Assembly: GCF_023703795.1 (NCBI RefSeq)
Contig: NZ_CP098518.1
Coordinates: 2,356,001 to 2,420,000, forward strand
DNA length: 64,000 bases
Reading direction: 5' to 3'
From: Haloplanus sp. HW8-1
Lineage (GTDB): Archaea > Halobacteriota > Halobacteria > Halobacteriales > Haloferacaceae
The notes under the pieces were generated by a model. It was given only the letters and a program-made list of their open reading frames with translations. It was not told the origin of the DNA and made no database searches. Positions 12,545 through 22,789 of the stretch are shown in pieces. A program made the position numbers and the translations under genes. Each line of letters starts with the position of its first letter. Position 1 is the stretch's first letter.

Positions 12545-13489
12545 TCAGACCAGCGACGGATCGAACGGCTCCGCAGGGGTCTCGACCGTCCACACCGTCC
12601 CCGACCCGTCCGGATCGATCAGGCTCACTCGGTCGTGGTCGTAGTGGGCGACGACCAGTCGACCCGTCTCCGGAATCGCGGCCCCGGCGAACGCGGGCGC
12701 CGGGAGGTCGACGCGTTGGTCGTCGGCGAGGGAGTGCAGGACGGCCCGCTCCCGGTCGAGCACCCACGGGGTACCGTCCGCCGCCACGACCGCCCAGGGC
12801 CGTCCACCGACGTCGTGGCGCGTTCGGTCCGAGAGTCTCGGATCGAGTTCGGTCACCGTTCCGTCGTCCCGACCCGGGACGAACAGCCGTCCGGTGGCGA
12901 CCGTCGCCTCGTAGGGGTTCGTGCCGACCGGTGCCACCGCCGAGCGGCCGGACTCGGTGACCCTGGCGATTCGCCCGCCAGCCTGATCAACGGCGTAGAC
13001 AGCGCCGGCACCCGCGTCGACGCCCTGGATCCGCGCCTCGGTGCCGAGGTCGACCGTCCGTCGGAGACGGCCGGCGGCGGGGTCGACCACCGAGACGGTC
13101 CCCTCGGCTCGACTTCCGACGAACGCCAGTCCGTCGCGGACGGCGACGTCGTGAGGCTCCGCGCCGACGCCGACCCGATCGACCAGCCGCAGCGCCTCGC
13201 AGTCGACGACCGCCAGCGCGTCGCCGCCGGTGCAGGGGACGAGCAGGCGGCCGTCGTCGGTGACCGCGAAGTGTGACGGGCCGAGGACCCCGAGGTCGAT
13301 CCGGGCCACCCCGCCGTCCCTGATCGCGGCGACGGCGCGCTCGCCCATCGTCGCCACGAAGACGGTTCCGTCGACCGTCGCGAGGTGAACCGGATGCGAG
13401 CCGACCGGAATCCGCCCGCGTTCGCTCCCGTCCCCCCCGTCGAGCAGGAGTACGCAGTCCGCGCCGGCACAGGGGACGGCGACGAGCAT
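12545..13489 (-). CDS. YncE-like beta-propeller protein
   Basis: A 314-residue repeat protein with about six YVTN/YncE-type propeller blades (e.g. RIPVGSHPVHLATVDGTVFVA, RVGVGAEPHDVAVRDGLAFVG). The ATG overlaps the stop of the rhodanese-like gene (ATGA), so it is the third gene of a three-gene operon. No clear signal peptide is seen at this start; the N-terminus MLVAVPCAGADC is short and carries two cysteines. It could act in the cytoplasm or be exported with its TAT-bearing operon partners. The ligand is unknown. Confidence 0.75.
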   Translation of the reverse strand: MLVAVPCAGADCVLLLDGGDGSERGRIPVGSHPVHLATVDGTVFVATMGERAVAAIRDGGVARIDLGVLGPSHFAVTDDGRLLVPCTGGDALAVVDCEALRLVDRVGVGAEPHDVAVRDGLAFVGSRAEGTVSVVDPAAGRLRRTVDLGTEARIQGVDAGAGAVYAVDQAGGRIARVTESGRSAVAPVGTNPYEATVATGRLFVPGRDDGTVTELDPRLSDRTRHDVGGRPWAVVAADGTPWVLDRERAVLHSLADDQRVDLPAPAFAGAAIPETGRLVVAHYDHDRVSLIDPDGSGTVWTVETPAEPFDPSLV

Positions 13490-14556
13490 CAGCCGGTACA
13501 GGAGAAGCCGCCGTCGTCGTCGCCGCCGACGGAGCCGGTGGTTTCGACGACCGTCGTCGTCTTCGTCTCGACCGGATAGCGCCCGCGGAGCGTCTCGGGG
13601 ACGTTCGCCCACTCCCCGAACCCGCCGTCGTACAACCGGACGTCTTCGGCCTGGAGCGCACGCAGGACGAGCCAGGTGTTCGTCGGGTTGACGTTCCCCT
13701 GTCCGTACACGACGGTCGGACCGTCCATGTCGACGCCGGCCGACTCGAAGTACAGCCCGGCGAGCGTTCCCGGTTCGGCGAGTTGCTGGCCGTTCACGTT
13801 ACCGGTCCAGTGGACGTCGACGGCCCCGGGAAGGTGGCCGTGACGAGCGTTCGAGTCGACCAGTTTGGCGGCGTTTCGCGCACCGAGATACGCCTCGGGC
13901 GGTCGAACGTCGATCAACCCAGGCCCGTCGGCGTTGAACGAGCCGACCCGATCGGCGATCCAGTCGCGCGTCACGATCAGGTCGTCGTTCGGAGACGCCT
14001 CGTACCTCGTCTCGACTGGGACCCGCGATCCGACGCCGACTCGTCCGTTCCAGGCCTCGTAGCCGCCATTGAGCACCGTGATCTCGCCCTCGTGACCGAG
14101 ATATTCGAGGGCGAAGACGACCCGAGAGACACGGGCGCCGACGCTACTCCCGTAGACGACGACGTCCCGGTCGGGGGTCAGGCCGACCGATCCGAGCGTC
14201 GACGCGATGGCGTCCGCGTCGGGGACGAGTCCCGACTCGCGCTCGGCCCGTGCGGTCACCGATTCGACGGGGACGCGACGCGCCCCGTAGACGTGCTCCC
14301 GACGGAACCGTTCGCGACTCCGGGCGTCGAGGAAGACGGCCGACTCCGCGGTCAGTTGGTCCGGACCGCGGAAGTACGCGACGTTGCCGCGAATCGACGC
14401 GGCGCTGGCCACGTCGGCGGGCGTACTGATGCCCGCACACCCCGCGGTGCTCGCGACGCCGGCCCCCGCCGCGGCCGCCAGCAACGAGCGGCGAGTGACG
14501 TCGCCGTCGGCACCGGCATCGTCGTCGCTCGTGTCCTCCGAGTGATCGTCGCCCAT
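13489..14556 (-). CDS. TAT lipoprotein with two rhodanese-like domains lacking the catalytic Cys
   Basis: A 355-residue secreted protein. The twin-arginine signal TRRSLLAAAAGAG ends at a lipobox (STAGC). Two rhodanese folds follow: the first contains FLDARSRERF ... VVVYGSSVGARVSR ... LNGGYEAW, the second LIDVRPPEAY ... GHLPGAVDVHW ... VVYGQGNVNPTNTW ... LYDGGFGEW. In thiosulfate sulfurtransferases the active-site loop reads C-G-x-G-x; here both loops have Gly where Cys is expected. The only other cysteine is in the C-terminal tail (FSCTG). It may bind rather than transfer sulfur. It lies in an operon with two propeller proteins, next to a thiosulfate-type importer. Confidence 0.85.
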   Translation of the reverse strand: MGDDHSEDTSDDDAGADGDVTRRSLLAAAAGAGVASTAGCAGISTPADVASAASIRGNVAYFRGPDQLTAESAVFLDARSRERFRREHVYGARRVPVESVTARAERESGLVPDADAIASTLGSVGLTPDRDVVVYGSSVGARVSRVVFALEYLGHEGEITVLNGGYEAWNGRVGVGSRVPVETRYEASPNDDLIVTRDWIADRVGSFNADGPGLIDVRPPEAYLGARNAAKLVDSNARHGHLPGAVDVHWTGNVNGQQLAEPGTLAGLYFESAGVDMDGPTVVYGQGNVNPTNTWLVLRALQAEDVRLYDGGFGEWANVPETLRGRYPVETKTTTVVETTGSVGGDDDGGFSCTG

Positions 14557-15864
14557 CTACAGTTCGTGCCCGCAGGCACAGTTGCCGATACAGTACGTGG
14601 TGCCCGTGCCCTTCGCGGCGATGTCGATGCCGAGCGTCGCCATCGTCCCCAGCATGTCGGCCGCCGTGTCGGTCTGGGGTCGCACGCGCCCGGCCGTCGC
14701 CCCGTAGGGCTTCGAGCCGACGGAGATCGTCTCGACGATTTCGCCGGCCGCGTGGTCGAGCACTTTCACCTCGTCGGCGGTCTGGACCGGAACGTAGAGT
14801 TTCTCCTGGTTCGGCCCCCACGTCCCGACGAAGGCCGACCCGCCGAGATCGATCCGGTCGGTCACTTCGGCGGACGCGAGGTCGACGACCGTCACGTCGT
14901 TCGTATCCGCGGTGAAGACGTATCCGACCGCAGAGTCCGGGCCGATCTCGCTCGTCAACGGCAGTTCGCCGAGGCCGTCCTCGCTCGTCAGGCGGGCGAC
15001 CTCCTCGGGGTTCGCCGGATCGCTGATATCCCAGACGCTCTCCGTGCCCGTCTCCCCCTCGTTGTTCTCGACGAGCATCGTCTCGCCGTCCCAGGCCGCG
15101 GTGTCCATCCACGGGCGGACGGCGTCGGCGCCGGCCGTGGGTTCGACGGCCACCTGGTTCGCGATCTCGAACGACTCGACGTCGATGATCGAGAGCGTGT
15201 CGCCGAAGATGTCGGGGACGTAGGCGTACTGCCCGTTCGGGTGGATCGTCACGTCACAGGGGCCCGGTCCCTGGTTCTCGCCACGGCCGCCCTCGGGCTT
15301 GCGGTCGATCTCGGCCGTCACCTCGCCGAACGTCCCCGACGTCGGATCGGCGTCGAGTCGGTACTGCATGTGGGTCGGCTCCCTGGCGCTGACGACCAGA
15401 TGCGAGCCATCCGGGGTGACCTCCTGCCAGTTCGCCCCGGAGCCGGTCTCGAACGACATCTCCTCCGAGAGCGAGGCGGCGGTGAACGCCCGGACCCCGT
15501 CTTCGACGTTGAGCCACATGACCGACTCCTCGGTCGCGAGTTGGTCGACGACGTACTGGTTCGAGGGGAACGACGACGTGGCGCCCAGATAGGCGGTCGT
15601 CACCAGTTCGTCGGCCGCGGCGTCGATGACGCTCACGGTCCGGTCGCCGGTGTTGAACACGAACACCGTCGGCGGGCCGCCGTCGCCCGAACCGCCTCCC
15701 GTGCCGTCGTCGGACGATCCTGCACAGCCGGCCGTCGCGGCCATCCCTGCCGCGGCCGAACCGGCGAGGAGCCGGCGGCGGGAGACGCGCCCCGATTCGT
15801 CCCCCGACGCGCGCTCGCCCCCTCGGTTCGGATAGAGTGCTTCGCTTCCGGACGTATCGCTCAT
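14557..15864 (-). CDS. TAT-exported YVTN beta-propeller lipoprotein with Cys-rich tail
   Basis: A 435-residue protein. The twin-arginine signal SRRRLLAGSAAAGM ends at the lipobox TAGC, followed by a Ser/Gly-rich spacer and a seven-blade-type YVTN propeller (TVFVFNTGDRTVSVID, GQYAYVPDIFGDTLSIID, KLYVPVQTADEVKVLD, ETISVGSKPYGATAG). The C-terminus ends in a compact cysteine motif, YCIGNCACG, unusual for this fold and able to bind a metal. The start at ATG was preferred over one 17 codons upstream because the signal peptide needs no longer N-region. It is the first gene of the operon, and its stop abuts the next start. Confidence 0.85.
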   Translation of the reverse strand: MSDTSGSEALYPNRGGERASGDESGRVSRRRLLAGSAAAGMAATAGCAGSSDDGTGGGSGDGGPPTVFVFNTGDRTVSVIDAAADELVTTAYLGATSSFPSNQYVVDQLATEESVMWLNVEDGVRAFTAASLSEEMSFETGSGANWQEVTPDGSHLVVSAREPTHMQYRLDADPTSGTFGEVTAEIDRKPEGGRGENQGPGPCDVTIHPNGQYAYVPDIFGDTLSIIDVESFEIANQVAVEPTAGADAVRPWMDTAAWDGETMLVENNEGETGTESVWDISDPANPEEVARLTSEDGLGELPLTSEIGPDSAVGYVFTADTNDVTVVDLASAEVTDRIDLGGSAFVGTWGPNQEKLYVPVQTADEVKVLDHAAGEIVETISVGSKPYGATAGRVRPQTDTAADMLGTMATLGIDIAAKGTGTTYCIGNCACGHEL

Positions 15865-16019
15865 TACCGGAACTACCGGCCCGACGGGGATAGGTACACC
15901 GGAGCGATGAGCCATTGCCCTTTATCCGAGTATGAAGAAAATATTGCCGGCTTCGGGGTCAAGGGGCAAGGCTGCACCGTACCGTCAGAGCGAGACGCCG
16001 GGAGGTACTCGGTTCCACC

Positions 16020-17228
16020 ATGCTGACACTCTCGCCACTGGGGTATATTGCCCTGTCCATCGGCGTCGGGCTGGCGTTCGGCGTCCTGCTGCAGAAAGCA
16101 CGATTCTGCTTCGTCAGTGCCTTCCGTGACTTCGTCGCGTTTAAAGATACGCGGGTGTTGAAAGGCGTCCTCGCGGGCGTCGTGGTGATGACGCTGTTCT
16201 GGAGCCTCCAGGCGACCCTGGGCTATTTCCGCGGGTTCTGGACGCCGCCGTGGGGGCTCGCGTCGCTGTTCGGCGGGTTCGTCTTCGGCGTCGGGATGAC
16301 GATGGCCGGCGGGTGTGCGTCCGGCACCCTCTATCGGGCCGGCCAGGGCTACGTCCAGTTCTGGATCACCCTGCTGTTCATGGGCATCGGATACGTCCTG
16401 TTCGCCTTCGCCTTCCCGACGCTCCGGTCGGTCTACTTCGAACCGCTCCGGTTCGGCGAGGGGGCGACGCTCTACCTGGCGCTGCCCTGGCCGCCCGCGG
16501 TCACCGGCGTATTGGTCGCGGCGGCCATCGTCCTGCTGTACGCCTTCGTCCGGGGCCGTGCGCGCCTCCCCGAGGAGCCGCGGGGCGGGACGGACGTCGC
16601 CGCCGACACCCGGGCTCAGGCGGCCGCTCCCGGACGCTCGATCACGGCGCTGTCCCTCGGGCTCCGGGAACTCGCCCACGGTACGCGAGACTACGTCGAG
16701 GCCGTCCGGTCGGACGATCGCCCCGTTTCGGCCCGTCTGCGCGACTCCTGGGACGCCCGGGCCGCGGGCGTCGGCCTGGCGCTGGTCGCCAGTCTGTGGT
16801 TCTGGGTCTACGGTGCCTGGGCCATCACCGGGAGCGAAGCCAAGTGGGCCGGCTGGCTGCTCTCCCGGGCCGGTGTCGACGTCGGGAACGTCGAATACTG
16901 GGGCTCCGTCCTCTTTCGTGGCGGCGGCATCTCCGTCACGGTGGACATGCTGATGGTGCTCTCGGTCGTCGTCGGCTCGTTTCTCGCGGCGCGGGCGTCG
17001 GGCGACTTCCGGATTCGGTGGCCCAAGCGCGAGCGTCTCGCGAACCCCATCGTCGGCGGCCTGCTCATGGGCGTCGGCTCCCGGCTGGCACCGGGGTGTA
17101 ACATCGCCAATCTCTTCAGCGGCGTCGCCTTGCTCTCCGTACACTCGATCCTCGCCGGCGCCGGTATCGTCCTCGGGACGTACGTGATGACTCACTGGCT
17201 CTACCGGGAGGTGGGCTGTGCGATCTGA
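16020..17228 (+). CDS. YeeE/YedE (TsuA-like) thiosulfate/sulfur transporter
   Basis: A 402-residue polytopic membrane protein with about nine or more helices. The three cysteine motifs typical of TsuA/YeeE are present: KARFCFVSAFRD (Cys30), AGGCASGTLYRAGQG (Cys99) and LAPGCNIANLFSG (Cys360). In the characterised bacterial homologue these cysteines relay thiosulfate across the membrane. The protein is a fused, duplicated form with a soluble loop around residues 180-240. It is divergent from the propeller/rhodanese operon and precedes the cysteine-synthase-like gene by 84 nt, which supports a sulfur-uptake role. Confidence 0.88.
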   Translation: MLTLSPLGYIALSIGVGLAFGVLLQKARFCFVSAFRDFVAFKDTRVLKGVLAGVVVMTLFWSLQATLGYFRGFWTPPWGLASLFGGFVFGVGMTMAGGCASGTLYRAGQGYVQFWITLLFMGIGYVLFAFAFPTLRSVYFEPLRFGEGATLYLALPWPPAVTGVLVAAAIVLLYAFVRGRARLPEEPRGGTDVAADTRAQAAAPGRSITALSLGLRELAHGTRDYVEAVRSDDRPVSARLRDSWDARAAGVGLALVASLWFWVYGAWAITGSEAKWAGWLLSRAGVDVGNVEYWGSVLFRGGGISVTVDMLMVLSVVVGSFLAARASGDFRIRWPKRERLANPIVGGLLMGVGSRLAPGCNIANLFSGVALLSVHSILAGAGIVLGTYVMTHWLYREVGCAI

Positions 17229-17312: not shown

Positions 17313-18332
17313 ATGAGCGAGTCCCTCGCGTTCGACGAGTCACACATCGGCGAGACGCCCCTGATCGAACTCGCCGTCGACGTCCCCGCAACGGTCTACG
17401 CCAAGGTCGAGTGGCTGAACCTCTACGACGCGCCGTACGGCGGCGGGTCGATCAAGTCACGCATCGCCAAGGGGATGCTCGACGGCGCCGAGAAGCGGGG
17501 TGACCTCACGCCCGGAACGACGGTCATCGAGCCCACCAGCGGAAACACCGGTAGCGAGGTGGCACGTCTCGCGACCGCCCGCGGCTACGACGTGGAGATC
17601 GTCATGCCCGACAACGCCAGCGGGGGGAAGATCGGCGCCGTCGAGGACGCGGGCGCGACGATCCACTTCGTCGACGCCGACCTCGGCTACGACGCCGTCA
17701 TCGACCGCTGCGAGGAACTCATCGCGGAGGACCCCGACCGGTACTACCGTCCCAACCAGTACGAGAACCCCGACAACCCCGGCACGCACGAGCGGACGAC
17801 CGCCCCCGAAATTCGATCGCAGACCGACGGCGACGTGACACATTTCGTCGCCGGTGTGGGCACGGGCGGGACGGTCACCGGCACCGGTCGGGGACTGCAC
17901 GACGCGGGCGACGTGACCGTCGTCGGCTTCGAACCCGCCGAGGTGCTGCACGCCATCGACGGCCTGAAATATCTCCGGACGGGCGACCACTACCACCCCG
18001 AGACGTACGACGAGTCGGTGCTGGACGAGAAGGTCTACGTGAACACGAGCGACGCGTACGACCGGGCACGGGAACTCCGCGAGGTCTACGCCGACGCCGA
18101 GATTCCGGTGGTCGATACGGGTCAGTACGACGAGTCGACGGTTCGTGAACGGCTCCGCGTGGACGGGCAGTTCGTCGTCGGGACGTCGTCCGGCGCCGGC
18201 GTCCAGGCCGTCCACGAACTCCACGAGACGGCGCCGCTGTCCGCGGACGACGTCGTCGTGATGGTGCTCTGTGACCGCGGCGACAAGTACGCCGACATCC
18301 CGCTCTGGGAGGCGTATCTGGACGAGGGATGA
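17313..18332 (+). CDS. Cysteine-synthase family PLP enzyme
   Basis: A 339-residue fold-type II PLP enzyme. The Schiff-base lysine is Lys48 in GGGSIKSR, the substrate loop is EPTSGNTG (73-80), the phosphate-binding loop is GVGTGGTVTG (181-190) and the C-terminal Ser of GTSSGAG contacts the ring. These mark O-acetylserine/O-phosphoserine sulfhydrylases and relatives. The loop around Lys48 has a short insertion (LNLYDAPYGGG) compared with CysK/CysM. Its position between a thiosulfate-type importer and a ThiS-like protein plus E1 suggests it may use a protein thiocarboxylate as sulfur donor, as actinobacterial CysM does with CysO (inference). Confidence 0.88.
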   Translation: MSESLAFDESHIGETPLIELAVDVPATVYAKVEWLNLYDAPYGGGSIKSRIAKGMLDGAEKRGDLTPGTTVIEPTSGNTGSEVARLATARGYDVEIVMPDNASGGKIGAVEDAGATIHFVDADLGYDAVIDRCEELIAEDPDRYYRPNQYENPDNPGTHERTTAPEIRSQTDGDVTHFVAGVGTGGTVTGTGRGLHDAGDVTVVGFEPAEVLHAIDGLKYLRTGDHYHPETYDESVLDEKVYVNTSDAYDRARELREVYADAEIPVVDTGQYDESTVRERLRVDGQFVVGTSSGAGVQAVHELHETAPLSADDVVVMVLCDRGDKYADIPLWEAYLDEG

Positions 18333-18341
18333 CGACCGTGA

Positions 18342-18608
18342 TCAGACCCGGCCGCCGCTGGCCGCCGGAATGACGCGGATCCGGCTCCCGGAGTCGACCG
18401 GGGTGTCGAGCCCGGACACCTCCGACCCGTCAACGTAGACGTTGATGAACTCCTTGATATCGCCGTCCTCGACGACGCTGTCCCGGAGTTCGGGACCGTG
18501 TTCGGCCGCGTGATTCTCGAACAGTTCGGCCAAGGTGTCCCCGTCGACCTCCACCGACGACGAACCGCCACCGCCGCTGAGTACCGCAGGCACCTTAATC
18601 TCGGGCAT
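18342..18608 (-). CDS. ThiS/MoaD/SAMP-like small sulfur-carrier protein with GG-Arg-Val C-terminus
   Basis: An 88-residue ubiquitin-fold protein. The N-terminal strand is EIKVPAVL, the central helix is TLAELFENHAAEHGPEL, and the C-terminal block VDGSEVSGLDTPVDSGSRI then IPAASGGRV is the CysO/MoaD signature. The Gly-Gly pair is at residues 85-86, followed by Arg-Val. ThiS, MoaD and SAMPs normally end at GG, so this form would need removal of two residues before adenylation. QbsE/QbsD is a known precedent for such trimming by a JAMM protease, and a JAMM gene lies 3 kb away. The ATG was chosen because the fold starts there; the upstream extension is not protein-like. Confidence 0.85.
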   Translation of the reverse strand: MPEIKVPAVLSGGGGSSSVEVDGDTLAELFENHAAEHGPELRDSVVEDGDIKEFINVYVDGSEVSGLDTPVDSGSRIRVIPAASGGRV

Positions 18609-18720
18609 GGATCGAGGTTGGACGGTTGGCCGTATAAACGGCACGTCGCCGGCAACCGCGATAGCGGCAGCCGTGCATCTCTCCGTCGGCCTTATCCGCC
18701 GGTAGACCGGACGTGGCTGC

Positions 18721-19581
18721 ATGAGCGACCCCGACCTCGACCTCGATCCCACGCAGCTAGATCGCTACTCTCGCCACATCATCATGGACGACGTCGGCCC
18801 GGAGGGACAGCGGGACCTACTCGACGCGAGGGTGCTGGTGCTGGGTGCCGGGGGACTCGGCGCGCCGATCATCCAGTATCTCGCCGCGGCGGGCGTCGGC
18901 ACGCTGGGTATCGCCGACGACGACGAGGTGGAACTGTCGAATCTCCAGCGACAGGTGATCCACGGCGACGACGACGTGGGACGCAAGAAAGTCGAGAGCG
19001 CCGCCGAGTTCGTGGCCGACCTCAACCCGGACGTCGACGTCGAGCGACACGACCTCCGGGTAACGGCCGACAACGTCGAGGACCTCATCGACGGCTACGA
19101 CTTCGTCGTCGACGGCACCGACAACTTCCAGACCCGATACCTCGTCAACGACGCCTGCACTCTCGCCGGCATCCCCTTCTCGCACGGCTCCATCTTCAAG
19201 TTCGAAGGACAGGTCACCACCTTCGCGGGCGAGGCCGACTCGCCGTGCTATCGGTGTATGTTCCCCGAGGCGCCGCCGGCGGGGATGGTGCCGAACTGCG
19301 CGACGGCGGGCGTCCTCGGTGTCCTCCCGGGGACGGTCGGCTGCATCCAGGCCACGGAGACGGTCAAGGCCCTCATCGGCAAAGGGAATCTCCTCGACGG
19401 CCGGATGGTGTTCTACGACGCCCTGGAGATGGAGTTCGACACGGTCGAGATCACGAAAAAGGACGACTGCCCGGTCTGTGGCGACGACCCGGCCATCGAC
19501 TCCGTCCACGACGTCGAGTACACGGCGTCCTGTGCGATCGACGCGGGGTCGGCGGCGGAGCCGGAGATGTCGGTCGACTGA
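18721..19581 (+). CDS. ubaA: E1-like adenylyltransferase UbaA (MoeB/ThiF family)
   Basis: A 286-residue E1 enzyme. The nucleotide-binding GAGGLG is at residues 42-47, and DNFQTRYLVNDAC is the adenylation core. The zinc ligands are Cys176/Cys179 (CYRC) and Cys250/Cys253 (CPVC). The predicted catalytic cysteine is Cys193 in PNCATAG. The sequence closely resembles what I recall of Haloferax UbaA, which activates SAMPs for both protein conjugation and tRNA/molybdopterin thiolation. Its start is 112 nt from the divergently oriented ThiS-like gene, a natural partner arrangement. Confidence 0.93.
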   Translation: MSDPDLDLDPTQLDRYSRHIIMDDVGPEGQRDLLDARVLVLGAGGLGAPIIQYLAAAGVGTLGIADDDEVELSNLQRQVIHGDDDVGRKKVESAAEFVADLNPDVDVERHDLRVTADNVEDLIDGYDFVVDGTDNFQTRYLVNDACTLAGIPFSHGSIFKFEGQVTTFAGEADSPCYRCMFPEAPPAGMVPNCATAGVLGVLPGTVGCIQATETVKALIGKGNLLDGRMVFYDALEMEFDTVEITKKDDCPVCGDDPAIDSVHDVEYTASCAIDAGSAAEPEMSVD

Positions 19582-21564: not shown

Positions 21565-21999
21565 TCATTCCACAAGCGCGACCGTCTCCCGCTCGAACCG
21601 CTCGCCGGTCCACCGCCACGATCCCAGATAGGGATAGCCGTCGAACGCACAGATGGCGTAGGAGTATCCCGGCCACGTCGCTCGGGCGGCGTCCGTCTCG
21701 CTCGGTTCGACCGGCCCGGCGGGGTGACTGTGATAGAAGCCGACGACCTCGAGGCCGGCGTCCTCGACTCGCTCGGTGATCTCGAACTGCTCTTCCGGGT
21801 CCATCGCGTACCGGACCTGGGGCCTGTCGGCGACGTTTTCGGCCCGGTGTATCTCGCGAACGACGCTCTGGGTCTCGCCGTACTCGCCGGCGAGGACGCC
21901 ACAGATCTCCTCGTCGCCGCCATCGTAGCCCTGGTAGACGATATCGTCGTAGGCATCACGCGACAGGCGGAGCACGGACCCGTTCCCGTCAGTCGTCAC
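21565..21999 (-). CDS. JAMM/MPN+ metalloprotease (Mec+/desampylase-like)
   Basis: A 144-residue single-domain JAMM protease. The catalytic Glu31 lies in EEICGVLAGE, and the zinc motif H-S-H-P ... S-x-x-D spans His90, His92, Ser100 and Asp103 (H-x-H-x10-D). The GTG start at 21999 overlaps the rhodanese stop by 11 nt; a start 23 codons upstream would lie deep inside that gene. JAMM proteins of this size include archaeal desampylases, actinobacterial Mec+ (releases cysteine from CysO) and QbsD (trims a ThiS-like precursor). Context with a ThiS-like protein ending GG-Arg-Val favours a processing or cysteine-release role (inference). Confidence 0.87.
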   Translation of the reverse strand: MTTDGNGSVLRLSRDAYDDIVYQGYDGGDEEICGVLAGEYGETQSVVREIHRAENVADRPQVRYAMDPEEQFEITERVEDAGLEVVGFYHSHPAGPVEPSETDAARATWPGYSYAICAFDGYPYLGSWRWTGERFERETVALVE

Positions 22000-22312
22000 G
22001 TTCGAGGTCGTACTCCCAGGCGTCGTAGCCGCCCTGCATGCTACGGACCGAGCCGGCGTCCTCGACACCCTCGTAGCTCCCGATGAGACGTGCGGCCTGG
22101 ATCGACGACTGGCCGATTGGACAGGCGACGACGACCTCCTCTTCCCACTCGATCTCGTCGATCCGGCTCGGGAGTTCGCCCATCGGCACGTTGAGCGCGC
22201 CGGGAATGTGTCCGGTGGCGAAGTCGTCGGGATCGCGGATGTCGATGATCTGCGGTCCGTCCCCGGACTCCAGTCGCTCGTGGATCTCCTCGGGGGTGAC
22301 TTCCTCGACCAT
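21989..22312 (-). CDS. Single-domain rhodanese sulfurtransferase
   Basis: A 107-residue rhodanese with the conserved IIDIRDPDDFATGHIPGA block and an intact active-site loop ACPIGQSS with catalytic Cys64, followed by GGYDAW. Unlike the exported rhodanese-like protein nearby, this one should carry persulfide. It is the middle gene of the TusA-like/rhodanese/JAMM operon: 2 nt after the TusA-like gene and overlapping the JAMM gene. It is a likely sulfur donor to the E1-activated carrier, the role the rhodanese domain plays when fused to MoeB in MoeZ/MOCS3. Confidence 0.9.
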   Translation of the reverse strand: MVEEVTPEEIHERLESGDGPQIIDIRDPDDFATGHIPGALNVPMGELPSRIDEIEWEEEVVVACPIGQSSIQAARLIGSYEGVEDAGSVRSMQGGYDAWEYDLERDD

Positions 22313-22314
22313 GG

Positions 22315-22614
22315 TTATCGCTTCCGGAGGAAGATTTGGTAGCGACCGTCCCCGCTCTTCCAGACGTTGGCCTCCGCGAGGTCTTCGACGGCCTTGGGGA
22401 CGTTCTCCGTGCTCGGGACGTGATCGGTCTCCTGTACCAAGAGATCGCCCGCTTCCAGGCTCTGGATCGCCTTTTTGGCCTCGACCTGCGGATACGGACA
22501 GACCTCACCCGTCATGTCCTGTACCTCGTCGGCTCGATCGTAGAGATCCTGTGCCGTCTCGTCGTCGAGTTCGTCCGGGAGGTCGACGACGTCCTCCCAG
22601 TTGGCGTCTGCCAT
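22315..22614 (-). CDS. tusA: TusA-family sulfur-carrier protein
   Basis: A 99-residue TusA/SirA-like protein with the signature EVCPYPQVEAKKAI (Cys39, CPxP). An N-terminal acidic helical extension of ~30 residues precedes the TusA fold. An upstream in-frame ATG exists nine codons earlier, but the chosen ATG gives the more usual N-terminus. It is the first gene of the three-gene sulfur operon. TusA proteins accept persulfide sulfur and hand it to further carriers, here presumably the adjacent rhodanese. Confidence 0.87.
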   Translation of the reverse strand: MADANWEDVVDLPDELDDETAQDLYDRADEVQDMTGEVCPYPQVEAKKAIQSLEAGDLLVQETDHVPSTENVPKAVEDLAEANVWKSGDGRYQIFLRKR

Positions 22615-22789
22615 GCTCCGAAGGAGGGGTTCTGCGGGCATACCCGTTACGAACCTCGCAGACCTCTCCCCTATCTCCGACGCTCCCGGCCCAAACCCTC
22701 TCGGGCGACCCCGGCGGGAGGCTTCTGGCGCGGCACACGACGCGTCCCCAGGCCGGAAGACATCTCCGTGTCGATGCCGACAAACGCGT

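Follow-up and report, generated by a model that had tools for sequence, protein, structure and literature searches.

In the window, that is, the whole stretch of 64,000 nucleotides analysed here, the minus-strand open reading frame at 18342-18608 starts with an ATG at 18608 and stops with a TGA at 18344-18342, and its product of 88 aa ends in ...IPAASGGRV, with the Gly-Gly covered by two residues. The codons of this cap, CGG GTC for Arg-Val, are located at 18345-18350 on the same strand, directly 3' of GGC GGC. The statement of the initial annotation that the protein ends in Gly-Gly-Arg-Val instead of Gly-Gly is thus confirmed by this reading frame, as well as by the orthologue copies described below. 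A TTTATA box (plus-strand positions 18633-18638, serving the minus strand) precedes the ATG by about 27 nt; by consensus match it is a predicted leaderless promoter, its position being that expected for a leaderless haloarchaeal transcript.

The carrier gene is surrounded by genes related to sulfur transfer. On the plus strand at 17313-18332, a profile match detects a cysteine synthase-like PLP enzyme of the CysK/CysM superfamily, which scores under all curated cysteine-synthase cut-offs; the gene is convergent with that of the carrier, with 9 bp between the stop codons, and is not co-operonic. Divergent from the carrier on the plus strand (18721-19581) is an E1, i.e. a UbaA/MoeB-like adenylyltransferase, which has 481 bits in the NCBIfam UbaA model (NF047750, curated cut-off 450) and is the second, locus-dedicated of the two E1s that the genome encodes. 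A JAMM/MPN+ metalloprotease of 144 aa is encoded on the minus strand at 21565-21999, about 3 kb from the carrier just as the initial annotation had placed it, and its start is overlapped by the gene of a single-domain rhodanese (21989-22312, minus strand) that is conserved in most loci, next to a TusA-family sulfurtransferase detected by profile match (22315-22641, minus strand). On the other side there are a YeeE/TsuA-type (Sulf_transp) transporter, a probable thiosulfate importer scoring under the curated TsuA-model cut-offs (16020-17228, plus strand), a two-domain, sulfurtransferase-like rhodanese conserved in many loci (13489-14556, minus strand), and a beta-propeller-repeat protein (14557-15915, minus strand), which by synteny is co-conserved with the island in many genomes.

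On the whole, the carrier, the cysteine synthase-like enzyme, the E1, the JAMM, the rhodanese and TusA are found together across many genera, often accompanied by the YeeE/TsuA-type transporter and the two-domain rhodanese; for 39 of the 49 orthologue copies, the locus includes the cysteine synthase-like gene. Among 35 genomes, those with the full locus have two E1 matches and those without it have one, the Haloquadratum MAG G095 being an exception in kind, since its two matches come from a single, interrupted E1 of the locus and not from two genes. In the Haloquadratum J07HQX50 MAG (L055, 7225-8453), the locus E1 is interrupted, with residues 5-86 and 129-286 about 510 bp apart, and in the related LUM.47 MAG it is intact. 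The context of cysteine synthase, second E1, TusA and thiosulfate transporter, which is absent from the initial annotation, suggests the purpose of the carrier: the conserved locus and the CysO fold point to carrier-dependent cysteine synthesis. In the open-licence literature, no paper describing the haloarchaeal arrangement was found.

The carrier itself belongs to the ThiS/MoaD family, with 33.4 bits in the Pfam ThiS model (cut-off 22.5). Its predicted model is a confident beta-grasp (mean pLDDT 84.5), with low confidence in the last four residues. Among PDB sequences, the CysO proteins of Amycolatopsis and M. tuberculosis are the closest, and the fold ranking also has M. tuberculosis and Amycolatopsis CysO first, followed by Haloferax SAMP1, with MoaD also matched. 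Because it has only 45.2 bits in the NCBIfam SAMP1 model (NF041918, curated cut-off 60) and is also under the archaeal-MoaD cut-off of NCBIfam, CysO-like is a better description of the protein than SAMP. It resembles the CysO type in being nearest to CysO and in being encoded with a cysteine synthase and a JAMM, and in its gene features it also resembles the capped pro-carriers of the QbsE/HcyS type, having residues after the Gly-Gly and a JAMM encoded nearby.

The JAMM of the locus has 157.3 bits in the NCBIfam haloarchaeal desampylase/JAMM1 model (NF041370, curated cut-off 130), and its catalytic residues Glu31, His90, His92, Ser100 and Asp103 are intact and conserved in an alignment of six sequences. 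Structural matches to its predicted model include P. furiosus JAMM1 and the complex of that enzyme with SAMP2. There is one further, weaker Prok-JAB match in the genome of the window, which we take to be of the JAMM2 type. In the JAMM tree, the protein clusters with all carrier-linked JAMMs, whereas the JAMMs of most congeners are in another clade. Every carrier genome checked has a JAMM homologue, and this is located inside the locus in 46 of the 49 copies. The same JAMM clade is also present in genomes without a carrier orthologue (L150-L163), where the gene often adjoins a rhodanese.

We then present an overall view of the cap, based on an orthologue set of 49 copies in 48 genomes, which come from the family of the window and from other haloarchaeal families and represent independent assemblies. 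The motif PAASGG is invariant in all 49 copies. Beyond it, 45 copies carry one to three residues (one in 35, two in six, three in four), and the remaining four end exactly at GG. The caps seen are R (31 copies), Q (3), QF, QA, RR, RV, AR, SR, TRA, CSP, QSK, TGQ and G. The presence of the cap in 45 of 49 copies of independent assemblies rules out chance as well as assembly or annotation error as its origin. The initial annotation had raised the conservation of the two extra residues; their presence is conserved, but their sequence drifts, and RV is found only in the carrier of the window. A conserved cap sequence serving as a recognition signal is ruled out across families, where only a weak preference for Arg/Gln is left. 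When the changes are mapped on a tree built from the adjacent E1s of 42 loci, the first cap residue has changed at least nine times and the cap length at least seven times, and the presence of the cap has been lost once, in Haloquadratum. Within one genus, the Arg codon of the cap shows at least six changes at the third position, two at the second, and no nonsense change. Stop-loss extensions longer than three residues are not seen among the 49 copies. In addition, all 21 more remote relatives, which belong to other archaeal families, end exactly at GG, and there is no JAMM within flanks of about 1.5 kb of these carriers. Taken together, the orthologue counts, the changes on the E1 tree, the codon pattern and the distant GG-ending relatives indicate that the cap is genuine, specific to its lineage, short, and under loose constraint. 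A single assembly (G147) carries two differing copies of the whole locus (L058 and L070), owing either to duplication of the locus or to an assembly of mixed origin.

The usual description of SAMPs has them end at GG, and the initial annotation had considered the extension to be unusual among them. This does not hold in the genus of the window: in a survey of its 12 genomes, 11 of 12 SAMP1-type and 10 of 12 SAMP2-type proteins have short extensions, including TQ, TDRAR, RA, RQ, RGATE, MR, A and T, where the names SAMP1-type and SAMP2-type rest on the PPVSGG and PPVAGG endings and on likeness to the Haloferax proteins, without a formal family test for each. In the genome of the window, the SAMP1-type protein is capped with TQ (G000:C1:1923262-1923525) and the SAMP2-type protein with T (G000:C1:3230633-3230896). 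Therefore, the idea that caps are unique to the carrier of the window is ruled out. Several haloarchaea also encode ThiS-domain proteins with 44-130 residues past PPVAGG (L096, L102, L091, L092, L100, L093), which are possibly natural linear fusions needing cleavage.

The next question is what removes the cap. In vivo, the Haloferax enzyme HvJAMM1 cleaves a linear fusion of SAMP1 and MoaE precisely behind the Gly-Gly, and it also desampylates (PMC4443979), and because of this precise cut the trimming of RV is chemically plausible. Bacterial capped carriers pair with a JAMM, with MV and C as caps, and the product is lost when the JAMM gene is deleted (PMC6006322). With these two precedents, the buried and invariant Gly-Gly, and the presence in the locus of a desampylase-family JAMM with intact catalytic residues, the proposal of the initial annotation that the JAMM trims the carrier is partly supported, but not as the sole role of the enzyme. 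Two Haloquadratum orthologues end at GG, yet the JAMM, the rhodanese, the cysteine synthase and the E1 are kept in their loci. In G177 and G179, which represent two lineages, a cap-less carrier directly adjoins the JAMM on the same strand, the pair being a probable operon. Both genomes have a second, unlinked carrier (L176 and L177) which is capped (GGS, GGST), while the JAMM-adjacent one is cap-less. In lineages f9 and f11, the JAMM-carrier pair occurs in loci that have neither CysK nor E1. Since cap-less carriers retain the JAMM, its conserved job is not trimming alone, and the reading in which it is kept for trimming only is ruled out by these four carriers, two of them in gene pairs. Cap-less orthologues in otherwise identical loci, which the initial annotation had named as evidence against its proposal, are thus partly found, namely in the two Haloquadratum loci and in the two GG-ending JAMM-carrier pairs. 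The trimmer could instead be the second JAMM of the genome or a carboxypeptidase.

We lean slightly towards an account in which the carrier is a capped CysO-like protein and the JAMM both frees its Gly-Gly and later releases cysteine from carrier-Gly-Gly-Cys. The carrier would be synthesised with a short cap at its C-terminus, which is Arg-Val in the protein of the window and one to three drifting residues in most related proteins. A JAMM, most likely that of the locus, would cut after the Gly-Gly to give a free terminus, the Gly of which would then be adenylated by the dedicated second E1. A persulfide on the rhodanese or TusA, probably fed by imported thiosulfate, would convert the carrier into its thiocarboxylate, and the cysteine synthase-like enzyme would join this to activated serine, so that the enzyme would use a protein thiocarboxylate rather than sulfide. 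At last, the JAMM would hydrolyse carrier-Gly-Gly-Cys, giving out cysteine and recycling the carrier, as suggested by the genomic context and by analogy to Mec+ of M. tuberculosis, which hydrolyses CysO-Cys and releases cysteine (PMC3227635). Removal of an encoded residue from Gly-Gly-Arg and release of cysteine from Gly-Gly-Cys amount to one type of cleavage, and so an enzyme doing the second would tolerate the first; by this logic the cap would be free to drift, and cap-less carriers would still keep the JAMM. Weighing against this account are the scores of the CysK-like enzyme under every curated cut-off, the convergent orientation of its gene, the f9 and f11 pairs, the further JAMM or a carboxypeptidase as possible trimmers, and the many genomes in which this JAMM clade occurs with no carrier orthologue.

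Other readings have to be weighed against this one. The cap may be a neutral leftover without any role, short tails past the Gly-Gly being cleared by a haloarchaeal JAMM or by a carboxypeptidase so that drift of the stop codon is tolerated. The differences of cap sequence and length between families, and the several capped paralogues per genome, are in accordance with it, and so is the distribution among 40 relatives, where short caps occur in 8 of the 19 genera that have a JAMM1-type protease and in none of the 10 that lack one, although this is a hand count that ignores relatedness, does not include every carrier, and leaves out a 79%-complete genome from the genus of the window, which has a cap and no JAMM1 match. 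However, the length is held at one to three residues with longer stop-loss extensions absent from the orthologue set, and the Arg codon, with at least six third-position changes against two at the second and no nonsense change, hints at weak constraint. We regard this reading as possible but doubtful.

The initial annotation went further and read the cap as an on-switch, i.e. a regulatory gate keeping the carrier inactive until the JAMM trims it, by which the level or activity of the JAMM would control the sulfur flow. The retention of the cap in 45 of 49 copies, with one loss on the E1 tree despite the drift of its sequence, and the linkage of the JAMM in the locus would agree with a gate. 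Against it, cap-less carriers are present in otherwise equivalent loci, short variable caps are also carried by the SAMP1- and SAMP2-type paralogues, and a regulatory signal was not found, while a constitutive protease makes no switch. The on-switch is thus unproven and in our opinion improbable. We give similarly little credence to the reading that the carrier acts chiefly as a SAMP, modifying proteins, with the JAMM as a desampylase also maturing it and the cysteine synthase being incidental or a conjugation target. It is true that the JAMM is over the desampylase cut-off and the E1 over the UbaA cut-off, and that HvJAMM1 does both desampylation and cutting of a linear fusion (PMC4443979); but the carrier misses the SAMP1 cut-off (45 against 60 bits), its nearest structures are CysO, and its neighbours are sulfur-assimilation genes.

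Under the account of a capped CysO-like carrier, the logic of capped carrier plus JAMM is extended to archaea and tied to a probable cysteine pathway. In addition, pro-forms are common among the SAMP-family proteins of one haloarchaeal genus. If the desampylase must mature these, the phenotypes of JAMM deletion in species of this sort could partly reflect the missing of free SAMP and not of deconjugation. The natural cap-less orthologues are a ready-made control. A broader view, which we put forward tentatively as less likely to hold in full, is that haloarchaea have a protein-thiocarboxylate cysteine pathway in which a JAMM of the desampylase family matures the capped carriers, including the SAMP1- and SAMP2-type paralogues, and releases cysteine, so that sulfur assimilation and SAMP activity would hang on one maturation protease.

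Overall, the locus looks like an archaeal variant of the known bacterial capped-carrier and CysO-type systems. The CysO-CysM-Mec+ system of Mycobacterium, with MoeZR, likewise has a CysO-type carrier, a cysteine synthase, an E1 and a JAMM in one module; there, however, CysO ends at GG while the haloarchaeal carrier is capped, the haloarchaeal rhodanese stands alone instead of being fused to the E1, and the haloarchaeal locus has TusA and YeeE/TsuA in addition. QbsE-QbsD and PtmS2-PtmS1 share one or two residues past the GG and a JAMM encoded with the carrier, but serve siderophore or thioacid natural products, whereas in haloarchaea the carrier is partnered by a cysteine synthase and its cap differs greatly from one species to the next. 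The HcyS-HcyD-HcyF-MetY system of Wolinella, with one residue past the GG of its carrier, an E1, a PLP sulfhydrylase, and a JAMM which trims the carrier and later frees the amino-acid product, is similar in combining capped carrier, JAMM, E1 and PLP enzyme, and differs in that its product is homocysteine via MetY while the haloarchaeal enzyme is CysK-like. Among the operons classified by Iyer et al. in 2006, type 4c comprises ThiS/MoaD, E1, JAB and cysteine synthase and is listed only in bacteria, and type 4e is that with SirA and sulfur transport (PMC1779556). The haloarchaeal locus is an archaeal counterpart of type 4c, with a separate E1 where types 4c and 4e have it fused to rhodanese. Finally, the E1 and the JAMM fall in the same NCBIfam families as those of the Haloferax SAMP1/UbaA/HvJAMM1 system, from which the locus is distinguished by a separate CysO-like carrier group, an E1 that is the second paralogue, and a JAMM clade differing from that of most congeners.
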